Assembly (NCBI RefSeq): GCF_900129855.1
Contig: NZ_LT670819.1
Span: forward strand, 5,146,001 to 5,210,000
Length of the DNA: 64,000 nucleotides
Direction of reading: 5' to 3'
DNA from: Streptomyces sp. 3214.6
Lineage (GTDB): Bacteria; Actinomycetota; Actinomycetes; Streptomycetales; Streptomycetaceae
The notes beneath the pieces are model-generated. The model searched no databases and was not told the DNA's origin. It saw only the letters and a list, made by a program, of their open reading frames with translations. The position numbers and the translations under genes are program-made. Below, one piece after another: positions 36,348 through 58,340 of the stretch (its first letter is position 1; each line of letters opens with the position of its first letter).

Positions 36348-36491
36348 ATGGGTCCCAACCATGACGAAGCCCCCCTCGGCGACGTACTGTCCGACGGAGG
36401 GCTCGACGACCGGCTGTCCCGGGGCCGGGTGCTGGAGCGGGCCGAGGCGCTGATGGCCGACGCGGTGCACGCGCGACATCGTGCCCGGTGA
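36348..36491 (+). CDS. Possible small protein ending in the att site
   Basis: 47 aa (MGPNHDEAPLGDVLSDGGLD, ending ERAEALMADAVHARHRAR). The amino-acid pattern looks coding, but no ribosome binding site is clear and the stop falls in the att repeat, so its original 3' end may have been replaced by the insertion. Confidence 0.3.
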   Translation: MGPNHDEAPLGDVLSDGGLDDRLSRGRVLERAEALMADAVHARHRAR

Positions 36492-36550
36492 GGCACTGGC
36501 GGAGGATACGAGATTCGAACTCGTGAGGGGTTGCCCCCAACACGCTTTCC
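36474..36550 (-). repeat. att site 1 (left end of the island)
   Basis: 77-bp perfect copy of tRNA-Ser(GGA) from the anticodon loop to 26 bp past its 3' end, without the 5' half of the tRNA. It marks the chromosome/element boundary. Confidence 0.9.
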
Positions 36551-42693: not shown

Positions 42694-42803
42694 ACCCGAG
42701 CGCAAGGCGACTGTCGCAGTGGCTGGGCGAGCCAATGCCCCTCCGCAAGGTGGCAGATCTCCTCGGGGTCGACGCAGCGAAGGCGTGCGGACGTGCCCGG
42801 TGA
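42690..42803 (+). pseudogene. Third gene of the trio, cut off at an att remnant
   Basis: Starts at GTG 42690 in the preceding stop and reads MNPSARRLSQWLGEPMPLRK, then a helix-turn-helix-like VADLLGVDAAKACG. The last codons come from the 27-bp att remnant, which supplies the stop. The original gene was surely longer. Confidence 0.55.
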
Positions 42804-42818
42804 GGCACTGGCGGAGGA
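42792..42818 (-). repeat. 27-bp att remnant
   Basis: CGTGCCCGGTGAGGCACTGG plus seven more bases are identical to part of the 77-bp att repeats. It then passes directly into integrase coding sequence, marking a deletion joint. Confidence 0.85.
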
Positions 42819-43105
42819 GTGACTATCACGACTGGAAGCGACTGCTCGAAGACTCGGGGGTTCGGAACGCCCGGTTGCACGACGCCCGGCACACGGCCGC
42901 AACCGTGCTCATGCTGCTCGGTGTCCCGGACCGAGTCATCGATCAGATCATGGGGTGGGAGCCGGGCACGTCCGCGAGCATGCGGGCGCGGTACCTCCAC
43001 GTGCCGGACGCCATGCTCAAGGATGTCGCCCGGAAGATCGCCGTAGCCATCTGGGGAACCCCGGAAACACCCGCTGTGGACAAAAACCAGGACAACGGGA
43101 GCTGA
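42819..43105 (+). pseudogene. int: Tyrosine integrase gene, 3' fragment
   Basis: Last 95 codons of an integrase closely related to the intact one at 56560-57789: DYHDWKRLLEDSGVRNARLH, the DARHTAAT box, GWEPGTSASMRARYLHV with the catalytic Tyr. The N-terminal three quarters, including the first catalytic Arg, are absent, so it is inactive. It is followed by the same terminator-and-att arrangement that follows the intact element. Confidence 0.9.
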
Positions 43106-43114
43106 GGACAACGT

Positions 43115-43146
43115 CGAAGGGCCCCACCTTGCGGTGGGGCCCTTCG
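43115..43146. terminator. Terminator hairpin beside att site 2
   Basis: CGAAGGGCCCCACC, loop TTGC and its perfect complement (14 bp). A sister of the hairpin at 58198-58231, lying where a restored tRNA-Ser would have ended. Confidence 0.85.
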
Positions 43147-43223
43147 ACATCGTGCCCGGTGAGGCACTGGCGGAGGATACGAGATTCGAACTCGTGAGGG
43201 GTTGCCCCCAACACGCTTTCCAA
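43145..43223 (-). repeat. att site 2 (junction between elements)
   Basis: 77-bp perfect repeat identical to 36474-36550 and 58230-58306, with two more matching bases to the latter. The tRNA 5' half is missing, so no functional tRNA is made here. Confidence 0.92.
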
Positions 43224-43414
43224 TTGTGTTGGTGGGGCCTCGGGCATTGTGCAGGGGTGTTCACCTGCGTTCATGGACGGTTGGCCGGTGGGGCGCACCC
43301 GCCTTCTGGTCCGGTATGAACGGCCGTGAACGGGGCTGAATGAGACGGAAACTGAGACGGAGCCTGCGCATAACTCGGGTGACGGCTGGCTGCGGTCGGC
43401 GCTAGCGTGCGGCG

Positions 43415-44017: not shown

Positions 44018-44266
44018 CTCTTCGGGGAGCCTGCGCGTACGGCGGGCGCCCTCAGCTTGGGAAGCTGCGGGCATTTGTGACTGTTCCGGCCGCTGACCTG
44101 GGCGAACGATGAGGGAGCGGCCCTGTCGGGTTCGGCTGCTTTCACCGTGGTTCCTCGCTGTTCCCCGCTCGTTCTGGTGCGCTAGTGGTGCGCACCGGGC
44201 CCATCCGTAATCCAGCCTGCTCGGTTCAGGCCTTCTCGCCGGGGCGGGCGCACTACCGTCGGGCAT

Positions 44267-44701
44267 ATGAAGGTCCGTCACAACGTACGTGCGGTTCTAC
44301 TCGATGGCGGTCAGCTGGTGTTCCTGCGCCGAGGATGGCCGGGCGGCACCTCCTACTACACGACCGTCGGTGGGGGCGTCGAAGCTGAGGATGCCGACCT
44401 TGAAGCGGCTCTACGCCGTGAAGTGATGGAAGAGATCGGTGCCACGATCGGCCCGGCGAGCGAGTTCCTGACCTTGACCGAGCCGGGCGACAAGGTCACC
44501 GTCATCCAGCACTTCTTTCGCGCTGACGTGCTGGACATGGATCTCAACCGCCGTAGCGGCCCCGAGCTCGACGATCCCGACATAGGCAACTTCTCACCTA
44601 TACGAGTCACGTTGGACGCGTCAGCCGTGCAAGCACTCGAACTCCATCCGCCCGAACTCGCCGACTACCTACAGGAGCACGCTGAGACTTGGGGTGCTTG
44701 A
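44267..44701 (+). CDS. Nudix hydrolase
   Basis: 144 aa with a complete Nudix box at residues about 39-61 (GGGVEAEDADLEAALRREVM then EEIG). It hydrolyses a nucleoside diphosphate linked to another group; the substrate cannot be told. It is distinct from the Pif-like Nudix protein at 50267. It stands alone in the cargo part of the element; the upstream 249 bp show no gene. Confidence 0.85.
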   Translation: MKVRHNVRAVLLDGGQLVFLRRGWPGGTSYYTTVGGGVEAEDADLEAALRREVMEEIGATIGPASEFLTLTEPGDKVTVIQHFFRADVLDMDLNRRSGPELDDPDIGNFSPIRVTLDASAVQALELHPPELADYLQEHAETWGA

Positions 44702-45101
44702 GGGGTGGCGCCATCGTCAATCCTCGGGCGATGACTGCATCGTCCCGAAGCAGCTTGGGCGGGCGCCTGACCTTGGGTCGATGTGCTGCTCACCTGCGCC
44801 GATGGTCCGCTGACGTCCGCCCTCGTCCGCAGTTGTTTGCTGGCGTTGTCACGCTGTTAGACACGCACCCTGTGCGGCTTCCAGCGTGCGGGATCAGGCA
44901 CGTCAGCTGAGTTCTCCGCTTGGGCATGGTGCGTCCAGTGTCGGAAGTCCAATCGGGTGACCTGCGGCTGTCGCTCGCTACGACTGTCACTAGCCGTCGT
45001 CACCGGTCGCCACTGAGTGGCCTCGGACGGCCCCGGGACGGCCCAGAGACAGCGTGGGATAACGCGTTGACGTGGCTGTGGAGGTGGGGTGTGATCACCC
45101 T
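44702..45101. other. 400-bp gap without a recognised gene
   Basis: No frame here has both coding bias and a ribosome binding site. Base composition is lower in GC than the core genes. I see no hairpin or repeat worth naming. Confidence 0.4.
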
Positions 45102-45320
45102 ATGGGTCCTGGCAACAGCGAGATGGATGCAGGCGTGGCTGACGACACGATCGTCGCTGGGCGGATCATCCTCGGACTGAAGACGCTACGTGATCATCTC
45201 GGCTGCTCTCTGCATGAAGCCCTGGACGCCTACGTTGCGTGCTATGAGGTGCTGCGACGGGAACGCCCAGCCGACTTCACCAAGAGTCACGAGGAGTACT
45301 GGGCGAACTTCTACTCATGA
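45102..45320 (+). CDS. Small helical protein of unknown function
   Basis: 72 aa from ATG 45102; starts at 45072 (GTG) and 45123 (ATG) are also in frame. IILGLKTLRDHLGCSLHEAL and VACYEVLRRERPADF suggest a compact helical fold of about 55 residues with an acidic end. No known domain. It ends 7 bp before a tRNA fragment. Confidence 0.5.
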   Translation: MGPGNSEMDAGVADDTIVAGRIILGLKTLRDHLGCSLHEALDAYVACYEVLRRERPADFTKSHEEYWANFYS

Positions 45321-45327
45321 CCCAATG

Positions 45328-45386
45328 GACGATCTTGAAAACCGTCGTGGCGCGAGTCATCGTGGGTTCAAATCCCACACCCACCG
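45328..45386 (+). repeat. 3' fragment of a tRNA-Ser(UGA) gene (old att site?)
   Basis: Contains an anticodon loop CTTGAAA (anticodon TGA) with an imperfect stem, the variable arm GTGGCGCGAGTCAT, the T arm GTGGGTTCAAATCCCAC and acceptor strand ACCCACC. The 5' half and the matching acceptor strand are missing. It looks like an att site for an element that targets another tRNA-Ser. Confidence 0.75.
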
Positions 45387-45394
45387 CAGTGGTT

Positions 45395-45431
45395 GAGAGC
45401 CTCTGACCAGCAGGGTCGGTCGGGGGCTCTC
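45395..45431 (+). terminator. Terminator after the tRNA fragment
   Basis: GAGAGCC pairs with GGCTCTC, with an inner CTGACC/GGTCGG pairing: a tRNA-type terminator that came along with the fragment. Confidence 0.6.
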
Positions 45432-45547
45432 CTCGTTGCTCCTCGCTGTGAGTGTCCGTTGTTCCCCGTGATTCCCCGCCTGATCGGGCACGGGAGGGGC
45501 ACGGATATTCCGAGCATGAGCAGCCGGACGGGTCGCATACTGACGTC

Positions 45548-46150
45548 ATGCTCTCGCCATTGCGGTTCCGAGACGCTCGGCACACGAAGTACCACTTCAT
45601 TGACCGTGTGCTCGTGCGCTGTCCGAGGTGCGCCGGGATTGCACACGTTGTCCCGGCGGTGTCTGCGACCGATGGCTCGGTTCCCTCGGTGTTCGCGCGC
45701 CGCTGTTTCGTCTGTCGGGCGTGCGGTCTGACTCGGGATGCGGCCGGGAGAGGGTTTCGCCTCTTCCGGGGGCGCGGTGAAGCTACAGATCCGTACTTCG
45801 GGCTGCCGCTGTGGTTGCAGGCAGAGACGCGGCACGGCTGGTTGTGGGCCTACAACCCAGAGCACCTGGAGCTGCTCCGGCAGTTCGTGCAGGCGCCGCT
45901 GCGTGAAAGGGTCCCATGGGATGCGCAGGTCAAGAAGATGACGGTTGTCGCGCGGCTACCAACCTGGATCAAGAGCGCAAAGAACAGAGGTGAGGTCCTG
46001 CGCGCCATGGGCCGCGTCTGCTCGGCTCTGCCTGGGTCGATGGTGGACGGGATGGGAGCCCCCAACGCTCGCCACGATGTGCCCGCGGCCGGGAACGGCG
46101 CCCCCTCCCACCCGGTGCCGACGATCCCCCGCCGGAGGCATCGTCTGTGA
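45548..46150 (+). CDS. Zinc-ribbon-like protein of unknown function
   Basis: 200 aa. Two cysteine pairs near the N-terminus (RCPRCAGIAH and RRCFVCRACG, about 27 residues apart) can bind one zinc ion. A Trp/Tyr-rich middle (YFGLPLWLQAETRHGWLWAY) and a basic C-terminal part with no known motif follow. Proteins like this accompany many Streptomyces accessory regions but have no assigned role. ATG 45548 was chosen; the ribosome binding site is weak. Confidence 0.6.
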   Translation: MLSPLRFRDARHTKYHFIDRVLVRCPRCAGIAHVVPAVSATDGSVPSVFARRCFVCRACGLTRDAAGRGFRLFRGRGEATDPYFGLPLWLQAETRHGWLWAYNPEHLELLRQFVQAPLRERVPWDAQVKKMTVVARLPTWIKSAKNRGEVLRAMGRVCSALPGSMVDGMGAPNARHDVPAAGNGAPSHPVPTIPRRRHRL

Positions 46151-46375
46151 CCGTGGGCCGCGAACGTGTCGGGTGCTCGACTCATGTCCCCCGGGCCTGT
46201 CCACTGTGGGCGGGCGTCGGCGCAGCCGGGGCGGAGCGGGCCGAAGGCAGGAGCGGCGCCCCGAGCGGAGCCGGGAAGCCCGCCCGGCGGAGCGGAGCGC
46301 AGCCGGGTGCTTGAACCAGTAGAGAAAGTTGCAACTCAGTCGGGCCTGAGAAGCTGTCCGGTCTCGGGAGATGCT
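46151..46375. other. Gene-free segment left of the IS
   Basis: Purine-rich (GGAGCGG-type runs at about 46225-46315). No coding frame or clear signal. Confidence 0.35.
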
Positions 46376-46491: not shown

Positions 46492-47757
46492 GTGATCCAC
46501 GTGGAGGACTGGGCTGAGATCCGCCGCATGCACCGGGTGGAGGGGCTGTCGGCTCGTGCGGTGGCCCGTCAGCTGGGGATCTCCAGGAACACCGTGCTGC
46601 GGGCTTTGGCCTCGGACCGTCCGCCGCGGTATCGGCGGGCGCCGAAGGGCTCGGCGGTGGACGCGGTGGAGCCTGCCGTGCGGGAGCTGCTGAAACAGAC
46701 GCCGACGATGCCCGTGACGGTGATCGCGGAGCGGATCGGCTGGGAGCGGGGGCTGACGATTCTGCGGGAGCGGGTGCGTGAGCTGCGGCCGGCTTATCTG
46801 CCGGTGGACCCCGTCTCGCGGACGGTCTATGAGCCGGGTGAGCTCGCGCAGTGCGACCTGTGGTTCCCGGCCGTGGACATCCCGCTCGGTTACGGCCAGA
46901 GCGGGCGGCCGCCGGTGCTGGTCATGGTGTCCGGTTATTCGCGGGTGATCACGGCTCGGATGCTGCCCTCACGGCAGACGGGCGATCTGATCGACGCCCA
47001 CTGGCGGCTGCTGACCGCTTGGGGAGCCGTGCCGAAGATGCTGGTCTGGGACAACGAAGCCGGAGTCGGCAAGGGACGCCTGACCAGCGAGTTTGCCGCG
47101 TTCGCGGGCCTGCTCGCCATCCGGGTGCACCTCTGCCGGCCCCGGGACCCGGAGGCGAAGGGCCTGGTCGAGCGCGCGAACGGCTACCTGGAGACCAGCT
47201 TCCTGCCCGGCCGCCTCTTCTCCGGCCCGGACGACTTCAATGCCCAGCTGACCGCCTGGCTGCAGATCGCCAACCGGCGCCATCACCGCGTCATCGACGC
47301 CCGGCCGATCGACCGTTGGGAGCGCGACCGGGCGTCGATGCTCGCCATCCCGCCCGTCGGCCCGCCCCACTGGTGGCCGCTTCGCACCCGTCTGGGCCGG
47401 GACCACTACATCCGCGTCGACACCAACGACTACTCCGTCCACCCCCGCGCGATCGGCCACATCGTCACGGTGCACGCCGACACCGAGGAGATCACCGTGA
47501 CCTGCGGCGACGACCTGGTGGCCCGTCATGCCCGCTGCTGGGCCAGGCATCAGAGCCTGACCGACCCCGAGCACGCCGCGGCGGCCCGGAACCTGCGCGG
47601 TGAGGTGATCCACCAGCAGGCGGCCCGGGCGGCCACCGCCAGGGCCGCGGCCCTGGCCCCCGACAGCCTCGGCATCGAGGTCGAACAACGCGAGCTGGGC
47701 ACCTACGACCGCATGTTCACCCTCATCGAGGGCGGCGGCGGGAAGGAGGACACCTGA
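46492..47757 (+). CDS. istA: IS21-family transposase IstA
   Basis: 421 aa. N-terminal helix-turn-helix (IRRMHRVEGLSARAVARQLG), DDE integrase core (AQCDLWFPAVDIPLGYG with the first Asp, WDNEAGVGKG with the second, AKGLVERANGYLETSFLPG with the Glu) and a C-terminal beta domain (YIRVDTNDYSVHPRAIG). Full length and without frameshift, so probably active. The TGA overlaps the istB start. Confidence 0.95.
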   Translation: MIHVEDWAEIRRMHRVEGLSARAVARQLGISRNTVLRALASDRPPRYRRAPKGSAVDAVEPAVRELLKQTPTMPVTVIAERIGWERGLTILRERVRELRPAYLPVDPVSRTVYEPGELAQCDLWFPAVDIPLGYGQSGRPPVLVMVSGYSRVITARMLPSRQTGDLIDAHWRLLTAWGAVPKMLVWDNEAGVGKGRLTSEFAAFAGLLAIRVHLCRPRDPEAKGLVERANGYLETSFLPGRLFSGPDDFNAQLTAWLQIANRRHHRVIDARPIDRWERDRASMLAIPPVGPPHWWPLRTRLGRDHYIRVDTNDYSVHPRAIGHIVTVHADTEEITVTCGDDLVARHARCWARHQSLTDPEHAAAARNLRGEVIHQQAARAATARAAALAPDSLGIEVEQRELGTYDRMFTLIEGGGGKEDT

Positions 47758-48617
47758 TGGCCCCAACCACCGCCCCCGCGAAAACACACCCTCCCACCGC
47801 GGACGCGGCCGGCGCGGCCAAGCCCGACGGCCAGAGCGCCCGCACGGGCCGGCAGACCGCCGCCGACCTGGCTTTCCTCGCCCGTGCCATGAAGGCCCCG
47901 GCCCTGCTGGACGCCGCCGAGCGCCTGGCCGAACGCGCCCGCACCGAATCGTGGACCCACACCGAGTACCTGGTCGCCTGCCTGCAGCGCGAGGTCTCCG
48001 CCCGCGACTCCCACGGCGGCGAGGGCCGCATCCGCGCCGCCCGCTTCCCCGCCATCAAGACCATCGAGGAGCTCGATCTCACTCATCTGCGTGGTCTGAC
48101 GCGCCAACAACTCGCACACCTGGGAACATTGGACTTCATAGCGGCCAAAGAGAACGCCGTCTTCCTGGGACCGCCGGGCACCGGCAAGACCCACCTGGCG
48201 ACCGGACTCGCCGTCCGGGCCTGCCAGGCCGGCCACCGGGTCGCGTTCGCCACCGCCGCCCAGTGGGTCGACCGCCTTGCCGCCGCCCACCAGAGCGGCC
48301 GGCTCCAAGACGAACTGGTCAAGCTCGGCCGCTACCCGCTGATCGTGATCGACGAGGTCGGCTACATCCCGTTCGAGGCCGAGGCCGCGAACCTGTTCTT
48401 CCAGCTCGTCTCGAACAGATACGAGAGAGCCAGCGTGATCGTCACCTCGAACAAACCCTTCGGACGCTGGGGAGAGACCTTCGGCGACGAGACCGTCGCC
48501 GCCGCCATGATCGACCGACTCGTCCACCACGCCGAGGTCCACTCCCTCAAAGGCGAGTCCTACCGCATGAAGGGCCGCGAACTCGGCCGCGTCCCCACCG
48601 CCACCGACAACGACTGA
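47757..48617 (+). CDS. istB: IS21-family helper ATPase IstB
   Basis: 286-aa AAA+ ATPase related to DnaC: Walker A GPPGTGKTHLATGL near residue 139, Walker B LIVIDEVGYIPF near 197 and sensor VIVTSNKPFGRWGETFGDE. It assembles at target DNA and directs IstA. It has a 40-residue Ala/Pro-rich N-terminal extension compared with the shortest members. It overlaps istA by 1 bp (TGATG). Confidence 0.95.
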   Translation: MAPTTAPAKTHPPTADAAGAAKPDGQSARTGRQTAADLAFLARAMKAPALLDAAERLAERARTESWTHTEYLVACLQREVSARDSHGGEGRIRAARFPAIKTIEELDLTHLRGLTRQQLAHLGTLDFIAAKENAVFLGPPGTGKTHLATGLAVRACQAGHRVAFATAAQWVDRLAAAHQSGRLQDELVKLGRYPLIVIDEVGYIPFEAEAANLFFQLVSNRYERASVIVTSNKPFGRWGETFGDETVAAAMIDRLVHHAEVHSLKGESYRMKGRELGRVPTATDND

Positions 48618-50266: not shown

Positions 50267-50698
50267 CTAGACGAGTTTCACGCCGTCGTGGGCGCGGATG
50301 GCCGGCGGGGACGCCGCGTCGAGTGCGTCTATGACGCGGATCGCGTACGCCTCGTCGGCGAGTTCGGAGACTTCTTCACGGGTCACCCAGCGCAGTGCGC
50401 GGGTCTCGTCGCCGGTGGTAGGCGTGCCGTCGGCCGCCTCGCAGCGGAAGACCAGCGAGACGATCAGGCCCGTCATGTTCTTGTAGACGCCGGTGAGGGT
50501 CGCGGGGAGCGCGATCTTGATGCCGGTCTCTTCGAGGACTTCGCGCTGAAGGGCTTCAGGAACGGTTTCCTCGCGTTCGAGGATGCCGCCCGGCGGTTCC
50601 CAGTGACTGTTGTCTCGGCGCTGGATCAGGAGGGCTCGGCCCCGGTTGTCGACGACGACCCCGGCCACGCTCACGGAGTGCGGGCGTTCTGTGCTCAC
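50267..50698 (-). CDS. pif: Nudix protein, probable transfer-immunity factor Pif
   Basis: 143 aa. Nudix box GGILEREETVPEALQREVLE then ETG at residues about 37-59, opened by VSVAGVVVDNRGRALLIQRR. In pSAM2 the Pif protein, which carries a Nudix motif, lies beside korSA and stops redundant transfer between cells that already hold the element. The position here, divergent from the KorSA-like gene, gives the name. GTG 50698 was chosen for its GAGG; the frame is open to 50755. Confidence 0.75.
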   Translation of the reverse strand: MSTERPHSVSVAGVVVDNRGRALLIQRRDNSHWEPPGGILEREETVPEALQREVLEETGIKIALPATLTGVYKNMTGLIVSLVFRCEAADGTPTTGDETRALRWVTREEVSELADEAYAIRVIDALDAASPPAIRAHDGVKLV

Positions 50699-50753
50699 GT
50701 TCCTCGGCCCTCTCGGATGGCTAGGCTCTCCACCGTAGCAACAACACTCGCCC

Positions 50754-50769
50754 ACTCGTCTAGATACCT
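50754..50769. promoter_or_regulatory. KorSA-type operator (korSA/pif)
   Basis: ACTCGT-CTAG-ATACCT: strong left arm, weak right arm, directly before the AAGGAG of the KorSA gene and upstream of pif. It is well placed to control both divergent genes. Confidence 0.65.
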
Positions 50770-50783
50770 AAAGGAGTACACAC

Positions 50784-51572
50784 GTGAGCCCTCTTTCTTC
50801 GGGCCTGCTCGGTGATCTCGACCCCACGAGTGATCGTGCGGTCTTCCGGCAGATCGCCGACCAGCTGCGGGACGCCATCGACCGTGGGCGATTCCGGGAG
50901 GGCGAGAAGCTGCCCTCGGAAGCTGAGCTCGTCGACCACTACGGGGTCTCCCGGATGACGGTCAGGAACTCCTTCTCCATCCTCCAGGGGGAGGGCCTGG
51001 TCCACGCCGAGCACGGCAAGGGCGTCTTCGTCCGGCCGCGTCCGCCCGTGCGACGGCTCGCCTCCGACCGGTTCGCCCGTCGCCACCGTGAGCAGGGGAA
51101 GTCGGCGTTCATCGTCGAGGCGGACACCGTCGGGAGCCATCCACAGGTCGACAGCCTTGAGGTCAAGGAGGAGAAGGCCAGTCAGGACATCTCCACGCGG
51201 CTCGGGTCCGTGCGGCGGGTGCTCGCACGTCGGCGCCGCTATCTCCTCGACGGCCGACCGGTCGAGTTCGCCACCTCCTACCTGCCGCTCGACATCGCCC
51301 GCGGCACTCAGATCGCCGAGCCCAACCCCGGTCCCGGCGGCATCTACGCCCGTCTCGAAGAGCTGGGCCACCGCCTCGACCACTTCGAGGAGGAGATCCG
51401 CGCGCGGATGCCTTCGCCCGACGAGGTGCGCACGCTGCGACTGGCGGCCGGCGTACCCGTGATCCACCTGATCCGGACCGCGTTCGACACCGAAGGGCGA
51501 CCCGTGGAGGTCTGCGACACGGTCATGGCGGCGGACGCCTACGTCCTGTCGTACCAGCTCCCGGCCACGTGA
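50784..51572 (+). CDS. korSA: GntR-family repressor KorSA
   Basis: 262 aa. Winged helix of the GntR class (FRQIADQLRDAIDRGRFREG, LPSEAELVDHYGVSRMTVRN) and a C-terminal UTRA ligand domain (RRRYLLDGRPVEFATSYLPL). KorSA of pSAM2 keeps the element integrated by repressing its activator, replication and transfer genes. AAGGAG precedes the GTG. Operator-like repeats ACTCGT-NTAG-ACGAGT occur before this gene, the pif/HATPase side, the gene at 51742 and the spd gene at 54629. Confidence 0.88.
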   Translation: MSPLSSGLLGDLDPTSDRAVFRQIADQLRDAIDRGRFREGEKLPSEAELVDHYGVSRMTVRNSFSILQGEGLVHAEHGKGVFVRPRPPVRRLASDRFARRHREQGKSAFIVEADTVGSHPQVDSLEVKEEKASQDISTRLGSVRRVLARRRRYLLDGRPVEFATSYLPLDIARGTQIAEPNPGPGGIYARLEELGHRLDHFEEEIRARMPSPDEVRTLRLAAGVPVIHLIRTAFDTEGRPVEVCDTVMAADAYVLSYQLPAT

Positions 51573-51633
51573 GCCGGTGATGGGCGGTGGTGCGCGGGGA
51601 CGCTTCCTCCAACTCGTACACCCCAACACGCTT

Positions 51634-51649
51634 ACTCGTATAGACGAGT
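51634..51649. promoter_or_regulatory. KorSA-type operator, best copy
   Basis: ACTCGT-ATAG-ACGAGT, perfect 6-bp arms, 93 bp upstream of the SCO3933-like gene that leads the transfer operon. Confidence 0.8.
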
Positions 51650-51709
51650 GGGCAAGTTGTGTGTCAGAGTGATCGTCGTGAGCCCGCGAAATCGGGTTCG
51701 CAGATCGCA

Positions 51710-51725
51710 TCTTGTATAGACGAGT
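51710..51725. promoter_or_regulatory. KorSA-type operator (transfer operon)
   Basis: TCTTGT-ATAG-ACGAGT, one good arm, 17 bp before the transfer-operon start. With the copy at 51634 it forms a pair 76 bp apart. Confidence 0.7.
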
Positions 51726-51741
51726 AGATAGGAACGCAACT

Positions 51742-52098
51742 GTGCGCACCATCCGTGTGGAGACCTCCGCCGCGACGATCCTCCTGACGGAGGCTCCCGA
51801 GCCGAAGGTCCGCGACCGGCAGACCGGCGAGATCGCCAAGGACGCCGTCAGCGGTGAGGCGCTGATGACCATCGGCGTCGTCTACATCGAGGACGGGGAG
51901 TCCTCGCTGATCAAGGTCACCGTCCCTGAGGGCGGTGTCTCGGAGGGGCTGAACCTCGGTGCGCCGGTCTCGCTGCCGGGGCTCGTCGCCCGGCCGTGGG
52001 AGTCGGTGTTCAACGGGCAGCAGCGTCACGGCATCGCCTTCCGTGCCGCCGCCGTCACCCCGGCCGCGTTCCCGGCCGCCATGGGGGCCTCGGCCTGA
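51742..52098 (+). CDS. SCO3933-family regulatory protein
   Basis: 118 aa. VRTIRVETSAATILLTEAPE, then VRDRQTGEIAKDA and WESVFNGQQRHGIAFRAAAV are typical of a family found just upstream of tra genes in actinomycete elements; its label as regulatory is from annotation practice and its action is unknown. GTG 51742 has AGGAA 7 nt upstream. The stop overlaps the TraSA start (TGATG) and two KorSA-type operators lie upstream. Confidence 0.8.
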   Translation: MRTIRVETSAATILLTEAPEPKVRDRQTGEIAKDAVSGEALMTIGVVYIEDGESSLIKVTVPEGGVSEGLNLGAPVSLPGLVARPWESVFNGQQRHGIAFRAAAVTPAAFPAAMGASA

Positions 52099-53477
52099 TG
52101 TCCGATCTCGCGACGCTTCTGGAGGTGGGTGGTCCTGTCGCCGTGCTCGGCGGTGGGGCCGCCTACACCCGGGCCAACCACCCGGCCCTGTACTGGTCCG
52201 CCGTCGGCGGGCCGATATCCACCGTCCGGCTGCTCAGCTCGTACGCCTCGGTCATGGAAGCCTGCGGCCTGACCGTCGCGCCGTCCCGGCTGAGCATCCT
52301 CGCCGTCAAGGCCACGACCCGGCGGGAGGTGCGGCCCGTCCCGCCTCGCCGGGGCATCATCCGGCCCACCTCGACCGGCTTACGGCTCCGTCTCCGCCTC
52401 GCCCCGGGACAGGAACCCGCCGACGTCGCCGCCTCGGCCGAACGGCTGAGGCACGCCTGGGGCGTCCACGCCGTCTACGTCACTACCGTCAAGCCGGGCG
52501 TCGTCGAACTGCGGCTGGTCGGCTTCGACGTCCTGCGCAAGGTGCGGATGCCGCGCAAGCTCGACGGCGGGTTCCTCAAGGTGCCGGTCGCGCTGAGGGA
52601 GGACGCTATGCCCTTCGTACGCGACTACCGGGCCGTTCCCCACCAACTCACGCTCGGCGCAACGCTGTCGGGCAAGTCCATGTACCTGCGGCACCTGGTC
52701 ACCGGACTCGCCCGTCACGACGTCGCTCTCGTCGGCGTCGACTGCAAGCGCGGGGTCGAGCTAGCTCCGTTCGCCTCGCGCCTCTCGGCACTCGCCACCG
52801 ACCCGGACGAAGCCGCAGAGCTCCTGCCCGTCCTGGTCAAGGAAATGGAGGATAGATACGACCTGATCAAAGCCCGGCAGGGCATCGCCCCCAGCACCCC
52901 CGACGAAGAGATCACCTCCGACATCTGGGGGCTGCCCGAGAGCGAACGACCCGTGCCCGTCGTCCTGTTCGTCGACGAGGTGGCCGAACTCTTCCTCACC
53001 GCCACCCGCAAGGACGAGGAACGCCGCGACGAGATGGTCACCCAGCTCATCCGCCTCGCCCAACTCGGCCGCGCGGCCGGCATCTACCTCGAAGTCTGCG
53101 GGCAGCGCTTCGGGGCCGAACTCGGCAAGGGCGCGACCATGCTCCGGGCCCAGCTCACCGGCCGGGTCTGCCACCGCGTCAACGATGAGGCCTCCGCGAA
53201 GATGGCTCTGGGCGACATCGCGCCGGAAGCCGTCCTCGCCGCCTGCGCCATCCCCGCAGAGCGCCCCGGCCTCGCGGTCGCGGGCGACACCTCCGGCGGC
53301 TGGTCCCGCATCCGCACCCCCTACCTCTCCCTCGGCGACGCCGCTGACGCCTGCCGGGAGACGGCCCACCTGGTGCCGGACCTGCCCGCGCTGAAGCCCT
53401 TCCGGCCCTACGTGCCCGTACCGCCGCCCGTCGAGCAGCCGAGGCCTGTCGTCCAGCCGCGCCCCGTCACGGACTGA
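52098..53477 (+). CDS. traSA: FtsK/SpoIIIE-type DNA translocase TraSA
   Basis: 459 aa. A hydrophobic stretch near the N-terminus, then the motor: Walker A GATLSGKS near residues 187-194, Walker B VVLFVDEVAEL near 300 and LAQLGRAAGIYLEVCGQRFG. Such proteins alone move double-stranded plasmid or AICE DNA between Streptomyces hyphae. The Pro-rich C-terminal end is variable. It is coupled to the SCO3933-like gene, and the spread genes follow 83 bp later. Confidence 0.9.
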   Translation: MSDLATLLEVGGPVAVLGGGAAYTRANHPALYWSAVGGPISTVRLLSSYASVMEACGLTVAPSRLSILAVKATTRREVRPVPPRRGIIRPTSTGLRLRLRLAPGQEPADVAASAERLRHAWGVHAVYVTTVKPGVVELRLVGFDVLRKVRMPRKLDGGFLKVPVALREDAMPFVRDYRAVPHQLTLGATLSGKSMYLRHLVTGLARHDVALVGVDCKRGVELAPFASRLSALATDPDEAAELLPVLVKEMEDRYDLIKARQGIAPSTPDEEITSDIWGLPESERPVPVVLFVDEVAELFLTATRKDEERRDEMVTQLIRLAQLGRAAGIYLEVCGQRFGAELGKGATMLRAQLTGRVCHRVNDEASAKMALGDIAPEAVLAACAIPAERPGLAVAGDTSGGWSRIRTPYLSLGDAADACRETAHLVPDLPALKPFRPYVPVPPPVEQPRPVVQPRPVTD

Positions 53478-53560
53478 GCCCGCTCCCGCCCCGGTCGGCG
53501 TGACCGTCTCGCGCCACGTCCATACCCCTCCCATGCCTGAACCCGGAAGGAGACGCCCTC

Positions 53561-54190
53561 ATGCGCGCCCAACTGGCCCGGGTAGACGCGGTGCTCGTAC
53601 AGGCGCTCATCGCCGCCGCGCTGTCCTTCGCCCACATTCACGACGTCGCCGTGGCGGCCGGACAGGACGGCTGGAAAGCCTGGGCCTACCCCGTCTCCGT
53701 AGACCTGCTGCTCGTCGCCGCCTGGCGTCGACTGCGCTCCGGGTCGTCCAAGGGTGCGGCCTGGTGCTGGTTCGTCATCGCGCTCGCCGCCTCCCTCGGC
53801 GCGAACGTCGCCACGGCCGGCCTCCTCGACCTTGCCGACGTCCCGGCCTGGCTGCGCATCCTCGTCGCGGGCTGGCCCGCCGTCGCCTTCCTCGGCGGCA
53901 CCCTCCTCGCCCACTCGCCCGCAAAGGCGGCCACGGCCGTCGAGACGACCGAGGACCAGGAGGACGAACCCGAACACCCCGAACCCACACCCGACCCGCC
54001 CGGCCGACCTGCCATCGAGGCACCACCGGAACAACCCGCCGTCCCCGTCCCGGCCGCCCTCATCGACCACGCCCGCAAGGTCGCCGCCCAGCACCACACC
54101 CGCACTGGCGCCCCGATCGACACCCCGACCTTGCGCGCCCGCCTCGGCGTCCCGGCACCCATGGCCGACGCCATCGCCGCCCACCTCTGA
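53561..54190 (+). CDS. DUF2637-type membrane protein (spread, SpdB-like)
   Basis: 209 aa. Four membrane helices in the first 125 residues (ALIAAALSFAHIHDVAVAAG, YPVSVDLLLVAAW, WFVIALAASLGANVATAGLL, ILVAGWPAVAFLGGTLL), then an acidic Pro-rich linker and a small helical C-terminal domain (LRARLGVPAPMADAIAAHL). Spread proteins help transferred DNA pass between hyphal compartments. GAAGGAG is upstream of the ATG. Confidence 0.8.
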   Translation: MRAQLARVDAVLVQALIAAALSFAHIHDVAVAAGQDGWKAWAYPVSVDLLLVAAWRRLRSGSSKGAAWCWFVIALAASLGANVATAGLLDLADVPAWLRILVAGWPAVAFLGGTLLAHSPAKAATAVETTEDQEDEPEHPEPTPDPPGRPAIEAPPEQPAVPVPAALIDHARKVAAQHHTRTGAPIDTPTLRARLGVPAPMADAIAAHL

Positions 54191-54201
54191 GAGGAAGTCC
54201 G

Positions 54202-54393
54202 ATGTCCGCGAACCGCCGCTTCCGCAACGTCACCCGCATCGGCCCCGTGCAGGTCGGCACCGCCTACGACCACCGGGGCCGCGAGAAGCACACCGCCGCC
54301 TGCACCGCCCCGCGCTGCAACTTCTCCGCCGACTACGACAGCCGCGCCGCCGCCGAGCTGGCCGCCCGTACCCACCGCTGCCCCGTCCGCTGA
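54202..54393 (+). CDS. Mobile element transfer protein (small)
   Basis: 63 aa, basic, with two cysteine positions in the middle (ACTAPRCNF) and HRCPV at the end that could bind zinc. GAGGAAG precedes the ATG. This short protein is a regular member of AICE spread operons; the function is not known. It lies 11 bp after the DUF2637 gene. Confidence 0.75.
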   Translation: MSANRRFRNVTRIGPVQVGTAYDHRGREKHTAACTAPRCNFSADYDSRAAAELAARTHRCPVR

Positions 54394-54409
54394 AAGGACC
54401 CCGTACCCC

Positions 54410-54604
54410 GTGACCGTCAGCCTGCCGCTCGTCGTCGTCCTCGGCTTCTTCGCCTGGGCGGCCGTCAAGTACCTCGGCGTCCGGACCTGGATCGTCGTGC
54501 TGATTGCCCTGTTCGGTTTCTGGCTCTCGCACACCTTCCTTGCCCCGGCCATCGAGTCCGGCACGCGCTCCGGAGTCACCGTCATAAACGGCCAACACAT
54601 CTAG
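54410..54604 (+). CDS. Small two-helix membrane protein (spread operon)
   Basis: 64 aa from GTG 54410: helices LPLVVVLGFFAWAAVKYLG and WIVVLIALFGFWLSHTFL with a short hairpin. Probably a spread protein. AAAGGA is upstream. Its stop TAG lies inside the KorSA-type operator for the next gene. Confidence 0.75.
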   Translation: MTVSLPLVVVLGFFAWAAVKYLGVRTWIVVLIALFGFWLSHTFLAPAIESGTRSGVTVINGQHI

Positions 54605-54610
54605 ACGAGT
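54595..54610. promoter_or_regulatory. KorSA-type operator (spdD)
   Basis: ACACAT-CTAG-ACGAGT: right arm perfect, left arm weak, 19 bp before the spdD ATG. Confidence 0.6.
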
Positions 54611-54628
54611 AGACAGGAGATCTCGGCC

Positions 54629-54880
54629 ATGTTCCTGCCCAAGTACCCGGACAACCCCACCCCGCCGCCCGCACACACCCACGCCCCGACCGACCCGGCC
54701 CCCGTCCCGATGCGGCGCTCGCTCCCGTCGATCTCCCTCGATCAGAAGACCGTCGCGGCCGTGCTCGTCGGCGGAGTCGTCCTCACCGCGCTGCTGGCCG
54801 CCGTCGCCGTCACGGCCATCTCGGTCGCCGTCGCCGCCGTGGTCCTGCGCTCCCTGCTCGGCGAACACCACCGCCGCTGA
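54629..54880 (+). CDS. spdD: SpdD-like spread protein
   Basis: 83 aa. A Pro-rich N-terminal third, then one long or two short membrane helices (TVAAVLVGGVVLTALLAAVA, ISVAVAAVVLRSLLG). AGGAGATCTCGGCC precedes the ATG. The name follows the family seen in actinomycete plasmids. It probably has its own KorSA-controlled promoter. Confidence 0.75.
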   Translation: MFLPKYPDNPTPPPAHTHAPTDPAPVPMRRSLPSISLDQKTVAAVLVGGVVLTALLAAVAVTAISVAVAAVVLRSLLGEHHRR

Positions 54881-54979
54881 CCTGCTGCGGCCAGACCTCC
54901 GGGGCGGCGCGACACAGCCACGCATCCGCCGCCCCGGCGGCCCACCCCTCCCGAAGTGCCCGTCAGAAGGAGCACCGCC

Positions 54980-56323
54980 ATCTTCACCAGCAACACCCCG
55001 CCCCCACTCCCGGAACTCAGCAACCTCGCCGCAGGCGGCACCCTGCCCGGTATCCTCCGCCAGCTCTCCGGGCTCGGCGGCTGCACCCACCCCATCCGCC
55101 TCGACGGCCACCGCACCGAATACGACGTCGACACCGCCACCGGCGAGATCGGCCGCATCCTCCACCACCTCGACTCGGGCGACCTCCCGGCCGGCCAACT
55201 CCTCGTCCGCTGCAACAACCGACGCACGACCCGCTGCCCGGCCTGCTCCGAGGTCTACCGCCGCGACACCTTCCAACTGATCACCGCCGGACTGCGCGGC
55301 GGCAAGGGCACCCCCGAACACGTCGCCACCCACCCCCGCGTCTTCGCCACCTTCACCGCCCCCGGCTTCGGCCCGGTCCACAACCGCCGCACCGACGGAC
55401 GCCCCTGCCGCTGCGGCGTCCGGCACGACCAGGAGGACGAAGCGCTCGGCACCCCGCTCAACCCGGACACCTACGACTACGAAGCCGCTGTCCTGTGGAA
55501 CGCACACGCAGGCCCGCTCTGGCGCCGCTTCTCTACGTACCTGCGCCGGGAGGTCGGCAAGCGCGCCGGACTGTCACAGCGGGATCTCCGCGACCACGCC
55601 CGCGTCTCCTTCGCCAAGGTCGCCGAGTACCAGAAGCGCGGCGCGGTCCACTTCCACGCCGTCATACGCATCGACGGCCCCGGCGGCGGCGACACCCCGC
55701 CCCCGACGTGGGCCACCGCCGAGCTGCTCACCGACGCCATCGGCGCTGCCGCTGCCAAGGTCCACGTCGACGGACCCACCATCGACGGCCGCGCCCACAC
55801 CTTCGCCTTCGGCCGCCAACTCGACGTCCGCACCATCCGATCCGCCGACTTCAACGACGGCCAGGAGCTCACCGAACGCGCCGTCGCCGCCTACATCGCC
55901 AAGTACGCCACCAAGGGCGCAGAGACCGCCACGGGAGCTCTCGACCGCCCGCTCAAGTTCGTCGCCGAACTCGCCCAGCTCGACATCAGCGAGCACGCCC
56001 GCCGCCTGATCCGAACCGCCTGGGCGCTCGGCGCACGCAAGGACCTCGAACACCTCCGCCTGCGGGCCTGGGCCCACATGCTCGGCTTCCGCGGCCACTT
56101 CTCCACCAAGTCCCGCCGCTACTCCACCACCCTCGGCGCGCTCCGCACCGCCCGAGCCGAATGGCGACGAGCACAGGCAGCAGCGAACGAACCCACCCCC
56201 GAGACGACGTACGTGCTCGCGCATTGGGTCTTCGCCGGAACCGGCCTCTCCGACGCCGAAGCCTGGCTCGCCGCATCCCTCGAACCCGCCCCCGGAACGG
56301 AAGGAGAGCCCACTCATGGCTGA
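54980..56323 (+). CDS. repSA: Replication initiator RepSA, apparent ATC start
   Basis: 447 aa from 54980. Rolling-circle-type initiator of pSAM2 elements: cysteine cluster RCNNRRTTRCPACSEVYRRD, the HUH-like AVHFHAVIRIDG that binds the metal, and AAYIAKYATKGAE with the candidate nicking Tyr. An ideal AAGGAG lies 7 nt before ATC at 54980. The only ordinary in-frame start upstream is GTG 54956 (455 aa), which has no ribosome binding site and would place AAGGAG inside the gene. So either ATC is used, perhaps a mutated ATG, or GTG is used weakly. Confidence 0.88.
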   Translation: MFTSNTPPPLPELSNLAAGGTLPGILRQLSGLGGCTHPIRLDGHRTEYDVDTATGEIGRILHHLDSGDLPAGQLLVRCNNRRTTRCPACSEVYRRDTFQLITAGLRGGKGTPEHVATHPRVFATFTAPGFGPVHNRRTDGRPCRCGVRHDQEDEALGTPLNPDTYDYEAAVLWNAHAGPLWRRFSTYLRREVGKRAGLSQRDLRDHARVSFAKVAEYQKRGAVHFHAVIRIDGPGGGDTPPPTWATAELLTDAIGAAAAKVHVDGPTIDGRAHTFAFGRQLDVRTIRSADFNDGQELTERAVAAYIAKYATKGAETATGALDRPLKFVAELAQLDISEHARRLIRTAWALGARKDLEHLRLRAWAHMLGFRGHFSTKSRRYSTTLGALRTARAEWRRAQAAANEPTPETTYVLAHWVFAGTGLSDAEAWLAASLEPAPGTEGEPTHG

Positions 56324-56549
56324 GCCGCAAGCCACTGTCACCCTGCTGGGACCCTTCGACCCGTCCTTCGTCCTCTTGACCGTCGAGGAAGCGGCCCGGC
56401 GGCTCCGCATCGGCCGCACGACGTGCTTCCGGCTCGTCCTGGCCGGAGAGATCGAGTCCGTCACCGTCGGGCGGCTCCGTCGAGTCCCCGCCGACGCACT
56501 GCCCGCCTACGTGGCCAAGCTGCGCCACCGACCCGCCCACGCGGCCTGA
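56316..56549 (+). CDS. xis: Excisionase (helix-turn-helix)
   Basis: 77 aa: LLTVEEAARRLRIGRTTCFR, then LVLAGEIESVTVGRLRRVPA is the MerR-like helix-turn-helix of the excisionase family. It bends att DNA so that Int can excise the element. It overlaps the repSA end by 8 bp and is 10 bp from int, so rep, xis and int are probably one transcript. Confidence 0.9.
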   Translation: MAEPQATVTLLGPFDPSFVLLTVEEAARRLRIGRTTCFRLVLAGEIESVTVGRLRRVPADALPAYVAKLRHRPAHAA

Positions 56550-56559
56550 GGGAGACGAC

Positions 56560-57789
56560 ATGGCAGAGAAGAACCGCAGCCGACAGCCCAACGGTGCCTC
56601 CTCGATCTACCTCGGCAAGGACGGCAAGTGGCACGGTCGTGTGACCGTCGGCGTCCGCGATGACGGCAAGCCAGACCGCCGCCACATCGAGCGCAAGACC
56701 AAGGCCGAGGTGACCAAGGCAGTCCGCGAGATGGAGCGGGCCCGGGACGACAAGAAGCTCAGGAAGCCGGGGCAGAGCTGGACACTCCAAGCCTGGCTTG
56801 AGCACTGGGTCGAGAACATCGCCAAGCCGTACGTCTCCGAGAACACGTACGACGGGTACGAGGTCGACGTCCGCGTTCACCTCGTCCCCGGCTTGGGCGC
56901 CCACAAGCTCGACCGTCTGGAGCCTGAGCACCTTGAGCGCTTCTACGGGAAGATGCAGGCGTCCGGGAGCTCGGCCGGCACCGCCCACCACGCCCACCGG
57001 ACGATCCGGGTCGCCCTCGGTGAAGCCGTCCGGCGCGGCCACGTCGCCACCAATGCGGCCGAGATCGCCAAGGCTCCTCGCCTCGAAGAGGAGGACATCG
57101 AGCCGTACACGATCGAAGAGGTGCAGAGCCTCCTCGTCGAGGCGGCCAAGCTCCGCAACAGCGCGCGCTGGGTCGTCGCCCTGGCGCTCGGCCTCCGTCA
57201 GGGTGAGGCGCTCGGCCTGCACTGGGAAGACGTCGACCTCGACCCGGGGTACGTCCGCATCCGTAAGAACCGGCTCCGCCCGAAGTACGCGCACGGCTGC
57301 GGTGCCAATCCGTGCGGTAGGAAGGCTGGCTACTGCCCCAAGAAGGAGCAGACCCGTCGCGAGCACAAGTCCACCAAGTCCCGAGCCGGACGGCGCACCA
57401 TCGGCCTGCCCGATCCGCTGATCAAGATTCTGCGCCAGCACCAGGAAGCCCAGGAGCGGGAGCGGATCGCGGCGGGTGCTGACTGGGAGGGCAAGGGGTA
57501 CGTCTTCGCCTCGCCGATCGGCGGACCGCTGAGCCCCAACACCGACTTCCATGTCTGGAAGAGGCTTCTCCGGGACGCTGGCGTACGGGACGGCCGTCTC
57601 CATGACGCTCGCCACACCGCCGCGACCGTCCTCCTGATCCTTGGCGTCCCGGACGTCGTGATCGACTCGATCATGGGTTGGGAGCCTGGGGGAGCCGCCC
57701 GGATGCGCGCCCGGTACATGCACGTGACCGGGACCATGCTTCGCAAGGTCGCGCACCAGGTTGGCGACGCGCTCTGGGGTGACGTCTGA
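56560..57789 (+). CDS. int: Tyrosine site-specific integrase
   Basis: 409 aa. N-terminal AP2-like arm binding (GKWHGRVTVGVRDDG), core-binding SAM-like domain (TLQAWLEHWVENIAKPYVSE) and catalytic domain with Arg 213 (LGLRQGEALGL), His 348/Arg 351 (HDARHTAAT), GWEPGG and Tyr 386 (RARYMHV). A cysteine cluster CGANPCGRKAGYC inside the catalytic domain is typical of the pSAM2 branch. It lies next to att site 3 and recombines the 3' half of tRNA-Ser(GGA). The remnant at 42819-43105 is a close relative. Confidence 0.95.
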   Translation: MAEKNRSRQPNGASSIYLGKDGKWHGRVTVGVRDDGKPDRRHIERKTKAEVTKAVREMERARDDKKLRKPGQSWTLQAWLEHWVENIAKPYVSENTYDGYEVDVRVHLVPGLGAHKLDRLEPEHLERFYGKMQASGSSAGTAHHAHRTIRVALGEAVRRGHVATNAAEIAKAPRLEEEDIEPYTIEEVQSLLVEAAKLRNSARWVVALALGLRQGEALGLHWEDVDLDPGYVRIRKNRLRPKYAHGCGANPCGRKAGYCPKKEQTRREHKSTKSRAGRRTIGLPDPLIKILRQHQEAQERERIAAGADWEGKGYVFASPIGGPLSPNTDFHVWKRLLRDAGVRDGRLHDARHTAATVLLILGVPDVVIDSIMGWEPGGAARMRARYMHVTGTMLRKVAHQVGDALWGDV

Positions 57790-58231: not shown

Positions 58232-58306
58232 ACATCGTGCCCGGTGAGGCACTGGCGGAGGATACGAGATTCGAACTCGTGAGGGGTTGCCCCCAACACG
58301 CTTTCC
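58230..58306 (-). repeat. att site 3 (right end, within the intact tRNA)
   Basis: 77-bp repeat identical to those at 36474 and 43145, here continuing into the tRNA 5' half so the gene is restored. Confidence 0.92.
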
Positions 58307-58340
58307 AAGCGTGCGCCCTAGGCCTCTAGGCGAATCCTCC
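58256..58340 (-). tRNA. tRNA-Ser (anticodon GGA), integration target
   Basis: 85-nt class II tRNA: acceptor GGAGGAT with ATCCTCC, anticodon stem ACGCT/AGCGT with loop TGGAAA, long variable arm GGGGGCAACCCC and TTCGAAT T loop. Its 3' half is the att core of the elements to its left. Confidence 0.95.

Follow-up and report, generated by a model that had tools for sequence, protein, structure and literature searches.

How does the 3′ part of one tRNA gene come to lie within an element that is integrated in another? The question is raised by a 64,000-nt stretch of DNA from Streptomyces sp. 3214.6 (C1:5146001-5210000, referred to here as the window), in which a fragment of tRNA-Ser(UGA) is found inside an AICE that occupies tRNA-Ser(GGA). 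An earlier note, made from the sequence alone, had described the fragment as lacking its 5′ half and as being followed by a terminator-like hairpin. It had further proposed that the fragment is an att site left by an element targeting another tRNA, which would mean that the cargo region was assembled from pieces with different targets or that a second site is open to the element.

The fragment and the element around it

The genes of the window element are those expected of an ordinary AICE. A RepSA-type replication protein (PF20199, E = 3.2e-152) and a FtsK/SpoIIIE-type transfer protein (PF01580, E = 3.6e-34) are encoded between ~43.2 and 58.3 kb, and the integrase adjoins tRNA-Ser(GGA), the 3′ part of which is duplicated at the far end (Table 1). 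When that part was sought to the left of the UGA core, its copy was matched at 43110-43213. The same gene set (RepSA, TraB/FtsK, and a tyrosine integrase) and duplication of a tRNA 3′ end characterize pSAM2-type AICEs; unlike these, the window AICE holds att modules of other tRNAs inside it, all in one orientation. The span of ~43.2–58.3 kb, with an older layer alongside, follows from the tRNA copies and an integrase remnant. A C-terminal piece of an integrase (42785-43105) stops where the homology of the distal att copy begins, and a further copy of the tRNA-Ser(GGA) 3′ part, 77 bp long and 100% identical, lies at 36474-36550. The UGA fragment is therefore internal to the present AICE. The perfect copy at 36474-36550 bounds the older layer, in which a SNF2-helicase gene is found.

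Table 1. Features of the AICE and its attachment modules (positions in the window)
Feature	Position	Strand	Basis or remark
tRNA-Ser(GGA) 3′ part, distal att of present AICE	43145..43228	-	homology from 43106, with terminator
Module A, left-end att module, tRNA-Gly(CCC) type	44046..44192	+	aligned rows
NUDIX-domain cargo ORF between modules A and B	44267..44701	+	domain match
Module B, left-end att module, tRNA-Pro(CGG) type	44733..44868	+	L279, L287
Module C, similar build	44908..45048	+	alignment
72-aa cargo ORF	45102..45320	+	stops 8 nt before UGA core; common to G033
tRNA-Ser(UGA) 3′ part (att core), anticodon stem to 3′ end	45329..45387	+	sequence reading, BLAST
Terminator-like hairpin	45395..45431	+	folding; other copies by eye
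Block of paired direct repeats, TTCCCCG twice and GGGCACG twice	45456..45504	+	alignment of 71 blocks
Cargo ORF "orf232"	45548..46150	+	longest frame 45452-46150
~330-bp conserved repeat between cargo and AICE backbone	46003..46330	+	recurrence in relatives
IS21-family pair in AICE	46492..48617	+	istA 46492-47757, istB 47757-48617
AICE backbone: NUDIX (-), GntR, SCO3933-family, TraB/FtsK, DUF2637, RepSA, Xis-like HTH	50267..56549	.	domain matches
Tyrosine integrase of present AICE	56560..57789	+	Phage_integrase, 1.6e-16
Complete tRNA-Ser(GGA), present integration site	58253..58340	-	ARAGORN

Little could be said of the cargo from its sequence: orf232 has no match in Pfam, PHROG, or NCBIfam, and no family was found for it, for the 72-aa ORF, or for a 200-aa ORF. 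The ~330-bp repeat, which might be a transfer or replication site, was matched by most of the rows listed, often more than once per genome; a tally of 295/295 belongs to a query that also contained the tRNA core. Phage records gave no match, and plasmid records yielded 34 partial matches, none covering >80% of the query. In the host genome, an 85-bp repeat with 95% identity between copies ~9.6 kb apart (C1:5134357-5134441 and C1:5143963-5144047) overlaps the tRNA gene at C1:5134326-5134398 and probably marks another integrated element.

The fragment comprises 59 nt of the 87-nt tRNA-Ser(UGA) gene, and its 5′ half is absent, as had been claimed. Comparison with the host gene, proposed in the earlier note, bears out the resemblance: by BLAST against the host genome, the complete tRNA-Ser(UGA) gene (C1:5117538-5117624), on the same strand and ~74 kb to the left, is matched with 94% identity over 63 nt (E = 1.9e-18). 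A lack of such similarity, which the note had listed as grounds for dropping its reading, is thus not observed. The variable arms of the two are unlike, and given this difference and the 94% identity, the fragment does not represent a copy of the gene that the host now has. A complete tRNA at this position, which the note had named as evidence against its reading, was not found; neither ARAGORN nor Rfam (gathering threshold) called a tRNA at 45.3 kb, and the fragment lacks the complete cloverleaf of a functional gene. The idea that it is the far end of a 74-kb element extending from the host tRNA-Ser(UGA) was dismissed, since other tRNA genes lie in between; in addition, the host gene is followed by other downstream sequence, and the fragment itself is internal to the Ser-GGA element. 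To the left of the complete host gene are a 24-nt 5′ piece of tRNA-Ser(UGA) at C1:5108612 and a decayed copy with a terminator at C1:5112128-5112290, both perhaps from older insertions.

The hairpin after the fragment is likewise real as a fold, at -27.9 kcal/mol with a z-score of -2.94 against 200 shuffles, and hairpin-like sequence with altered letters was seen by eye in other copies. A third piece, overlooked earlier, is the block of paired direct repeats. Since this conserved block follows the hairpin, the right limit of the feature was moved to 45504. In an alignment of 71 blocks, some of them without an adjoining core, the repeat pairs recur, and the block is read as a set of putative integrase arm sites. 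The stretch 45329-45504 as a whole is matched elsewhere in the genus, often at nearly full length and also at complete tRNA-Ser(UGA) genes, so the fragment is not a product of chance; core, hairpin, and repeat block form one attachment module. A role of the block as promoter of the next cargo gene is not general, because the next gene seen in several UGA-type loci (e.g., L196, L201, and L219) is a GntR gene that reads toward the block. In L179, repeat blocks stand alone at positions 3279, 4505, and 7973, with nothing matching a tRNA core; their two right-hand repeats have jointly become TGGCACG, and they are perhaps arm sites of another integrase.

The module at complete tRNA genes and inside other AICEs

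When 392 genomes of the genus were searched with 45329-45504, matches were obtained in 390, ordinary tRNA genes included, and among the matches listed many were near-complete over the 176 nt. Thirty loci were then read side by side with 1.5-kb flanks: 12 held a complete tRNA-Ser(UGA) and 18 a fragment, the window included. Core and variable hairpin were common to them, as was the block TTCCCCG-TTCCCCG...GGGCACG-GGGCACG except in L120, L121, and L142; beyond the block most sequences diverge. A survey of longer stretches covered 60 of up to 20 kb (L172-L231), taken from among the matches listed, plus five named loci. Its first stretches were chosen mainly as fragments, and later ones by going down the list while skipping known complete tRNAs and a few others; because of this uneven choice, the counts of fragments and complete tRNAs are not estimates of their frequency.

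Where the tRNA is complete, the module marks the left end of an AICE. In five loci (L175, L193, L208, L209, and L212), a complete tRNA-Ser(UGA) with the block stands at the left, and a UGA-type integrase followed by a UGA core stands at the right. The 330-bp repeat is present in L175, L193, L208, and L212 (none was seen in L209), and transfer genes are present in L175, L208, L209, and L212 (none were seen in L193). The order in these UGA-type AICEs is tRNA-Ser(UGA), repeat block, cargo, 330-bp repeat, NUDIX/GntR, TraB, Rep, UGA-type integrase, and UGA core. The UGA-type integrase, with that of L157 taken as the type member, is a tyrosine recombinase according to Pfam. The sequence comparison thus supports the reading of fragment, hairpin, and block in the window as a left-end attachment module of tRNA-Ser(UGA) AICEs, and the suggestion of an att site from an element with another tRNA target has held up.

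Such modules also recur inside AICEs with other targets. A total of 78 core copies were scored: 37 fragments with a block, one fragment with a block and a UGA-type integrase alongside, 25 complete tRNAs with a block, seven fragments with an integrase, six fragments, and two complete tRNAs. All were found by similarity to the window module, which favours conserved copies. Judged by length, L151 and G087 represent a single contig, and so do L156 and G099; each contig was counted once. The locus L147 (Ile-GAT), with part of the block and no core, was left out. Among the 38 fragments with a block (37 plus the one beside an integrase), the nearest tRNA on the 3′ side points at the copy in 15 cases and away in none (452 kb read); for the other 23, the sequence read on that side contains no tRNA. 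On their 5′ side, four tRNAs point at the copy and one away (281 kb), while on the 3′ side of the 25 complete copies two point at it and six away (365 kb).

In 14 of these 15 loci, the 3′ part of the downstream tRNA is repeated to the left of the UGA core, so that the core is bracketed. The figure combines 13/14 with L228, where the left copy is present but the 64-nt "tRNA-Phe(aaa)" call is doubtful; the repeated part is absent in L207, and the left copy in L218 is weak (83% over 46 nt). Eight targets are clear, namely Ser-GGA, Arg-CCT, Val-TAC, Thr-TGT, Pro-CGG, Arg-ACG, Arg-CCG, and Gly-CCC. Of the 14 bracketed loci, only five show a backbone with TraB and Rep (the window, L148, L151, L169, and L197), with four of the eight targets (Ser-GGA, Val-TAC, Arg-CCT, and Thr-TGT). 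The remaining loci are decayed or lack TraB/Rep in the stretch read: in L172, L180, L183, L184, and L185 only the end of an integrase gene is left beside the tRNA, L218 has integrase scraps, and no integrase was seen in L176 or L225. L169 and L228 have an additional tRNA copy to the right of the UGA core, which places the module in an outer tandem layer rather than in the element next to the tRNA. Not every related AICE carries the module, as no UGA core was found in the 10 kb left of the 330-bp repeat in L167 (Pro-CGG), the backbone of which is 72–95% identical to that of the window. The buried att module is confirmed, and it is part of a recurrent pattern.

A proposed stack of left ends, joints at the core, and differing integrases

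Modules A, B, and C lie to the left of the UGA module in the same orientation. Module A was found by reading to stand at the 3′ part of tRNA-Gly(CCC) in 8 of 30 aligned rows (one of the rows being the window), and three of those eight match tRNA-Gly(CCC) at 98–100% over 48 nt. For module B, two of 22 rows (three being the window), L279 and L287, stand at the 3′ part of tRNA-Pro(CGG), with 95% and 100% identity over 43 nt; an assignment to tRNA-Pro(GGG) was dropped when the comparison gave tRNA-Pro(CGG). The repeat of module B is GTCACGC(A/T)GTTAGACAC, which resembles an arm site of pSAM2. Alignment yielded no tRNA target for module C. Matches to the A stretch were present in 71 of 199 genomes and to the stretch of B and C in 122 of 199.

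The arrangement is not peculiar to the window. A module A or B lies <6 kb to the 5′ side in 11 of the 38 buried UGA copies (10 loci) versus none of the 25 complete copies; on the 3′ side the counts are 1/38 and 3/25. Neighbouring modules <6 kb apart share their orientation in 23 of 24 cases and in 18 of 18 if their types differ (66 distinct loci), the sole exception being a UGA-UGA pair in L223. Likewise, where the 330-bp repeat (25 copies) comes after a module at a distance of up to 8 kb, the two point the same way for all 35 modules concerned. In the five loci in which it was scored, the outermost module is that of the current target: a UGA module at a complete tRNA is outermost in L219 and L227, with A inside, and in L221, with B inside, whereas L184 and L185, which now occupy tRNA-Pro(CGG), have module B directly against their left Pro copy and the UGA module farther in.

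The joints of the buried copies fall at the core. Pairwise comparison covered 74 loci, i.e., 73 of the 78 copies (omitting those <1.5 kb from the end of a stretch) and G033. Twenty-three pairs of fragments, drawn from 20 loci and thus not independent, shared >260 nt of homology rightward, and in 19 of them the homology ends within 10 nt of the core start. None of 34 pairs of complete tRNAs breaks there, which is partly trivial since the 5′ half is common to them. All eight pairs of a complete tRNA with a fragment end at exactly 0, but every one involves the same fragment, L211. Breaks of this kind are what site-specific recombination at the core start would give. In the window itself, homology to L148 (Streptomyces olivochromogenes, Val-TAC AICE) runs rightward from the core at 95% over 685 nt and stops at the core, whereas homology to G033 (88% over 469 nt) lies nearly all left of the core and ends inside it, the G033 core being of the other variable-arm type to the right of CGATC. 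Since the left flank matches one element and the right flank another, the two sides of the window core have different histories. Together with modules A and B, of tRNA-Gly(CCC) and tRNA-Pro(CGG) type, this substantiates the proposal of a cargo region pieced together from parts with different targets.

Unlike integrases are found on like backbones. The window and L197 (Thr-TGT AICE) share 94% identity in GntR, 92% in NUDIX, 89% in Rep, and 87% in TraB, versus 41% in Xis and 34% in Int; with L167, the values are 93% for GntR, 87% for TraB, and 25% for Int. Conversely, TraB of L148 is only 58% identical to that of the window, yet the segment from core to orf232 is 95% identical. These contrasts indicate that backbone, integrase end, and left-end cargo move separately.

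How the module may have become internal

The explanation judged probable is that the left-end module of Ser(UGA) AICEs became internal to a Ser(GGA) AICE by recombination in the backbone and switching of the integrase. The recombination route and the time order of the switches, as we infer them, would be as follows. Circles of related AICEs would recombine through their common backbone, whereby the old integrase end would be lost and a new integrase gained, along with the att site and left end that belong to it. The new left end would come to lie outside the old one, and the old one would be joined where crossover takes place, in the anticodon loop, the proposed cutting site of the old integrase. 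Repeated switches could then build a stack facing one way, in the window Ser-GGA (present), Gly-CCC, Pro-CGG, C, and Ser-UGA. On sequence grounds, the stack of left ends is thus read as having been left by integrase switching.

It may be asked whether the UGA module is a live second att site, i.e., an attP for tRNA-Ser(UGA) at which a UGA-type integrase acting in trans could integrate or mobilize the element. Core and block together show higher conservation than the rest of the noncoding module (189/216 versus 146/222 positions, p = 8e-8), as tested with the pairs L151 and L156 only, L148 being omitted as 91–100% identical throughout; in the same two pairs their advantage over orf232 is not significant (p = 0.083), and conservation partly reflects how the copies were found. 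GATC stands directly left of the core in 17 of 37 fragments with a block versus none of 27 complete tRNAs, which would suit a working site. So would a motif resembling GGAGTCTCAATGG: of 11 copies picked as look-alikes and scanned, eight carry it to the left of the core at a distance of ~30 nt, but the left flank of the window is without that motif. Moreover, no host protein exceeds 38% identity to the UGA-type integrase, so use of the site would probably need an integrase from outside. Present use in trans is therefore held to be unlikely, albeit worth serious consideration, and a relic of a formerly working joint is favoured.

Modules alternating with small ORFs in one orientation also call to mind a gene-cassette array, in which single cargo genes, each with an att module in front, would come and go. 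Neighbours 1.1–1.9 kb apart, such as A-A-C in L246 and UGA-UGA in L192, fit this picture, and the near-identity of the core-orf232 segment in L148 implies a segment that moved apart from the backbone. However, 18 of 24 neighbouring modules differ in type and would not be moved by one integrase, and for each of modules A, B, and UGA there are matching left ends beside a tRNA. An integron cassette array is defined by attC sites and an IntI integrase; these three modules are tRNA-derived. An array of this sort is improbable as the source of the stack.

Less probable still is an accretion scar, in which a UGA-type AICE inserted at a chance UGA-like site and then decayed. Tandem accretion of AICEs is described in passages of PMC9513070, and the window retains older tRNA-Ser(GGA) fragments at 36474-36550 and 43145-43228. 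Against it, elements with several targets carry this module at a comparable position, so that the accident would have had to happen many times over, and only one UGA core was found within the element. A cis-mobilizable element (CIME), by comparison, has attL and attR of one specificity at its flanks and no integrase, and the single core does not form such a pair.

Finally, a terminator or small RNA without an att role, suggested by the strong hairpin, can hardly be upheld, given that relative to L151 and L156 the hairpin stretch is poorly kept (66% and 57%) while the repeat block (92% and 84%) and core (97% and 78%) are better kept, and that copies beside complete tRNAs mark element ends.

The preferred reading, burial of a left end by integrase switching, draws on processes that are already known. 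Accretion, module exchange, and integrase switching of AICEs are reported in parts of PMC9513070, where the AICE03 family combines a like backbone with a different integrase and target, comparable to the 87–94% identity in GntR, Rep, and TraB at 34% in Int seen here; the section on AICE03 makes no mention of an old att kept inside the element, which is the case in the window. Passages of PMC3218068 deal with tRNA remnants suitable as integration sites and with Fean6303, which has an extra attL. As described there and in PMC9513070, Fean6303 and tandem or accreted AICEs resemble the window AICE in having more than one att copy in or beside the element, but their copies are of one target and those of the window of several. 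The composite genomic island CGI48, from an excerpt of PMC8978831, likewise has att sites of another target in one element; it holds a whole inserted island with both att sites, unlike the single left-end modules here. An internal att site between tandem elements is noted in part of PMC10711302. Stacked internal att modules of several tRNA targets were not met in the accessible portions of the open-access literature searched.

Buried sites may keep a readable record of the targets that elements or their parts once used. More broadly, it is tentatively suggested, as something short of an even prospect, that Streptomyces AICEs carry stacks of att modules belonging to other tRNA targets, facing one way and with the current module outermost, and that the cores could be docking points through which integrases, left ends, and single cargo genes are exchanged and old targets regained. 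If so, the target history of an element would be readable from its own sequence. A change of target is usually inferred from comparison of integrases; internal modules would give a direct record and would make the order of switches testable. They would also complicate the automatic calling of boundaries in such elements, and would explain how near-identical cargo segments come to be found in divergent AICEs.
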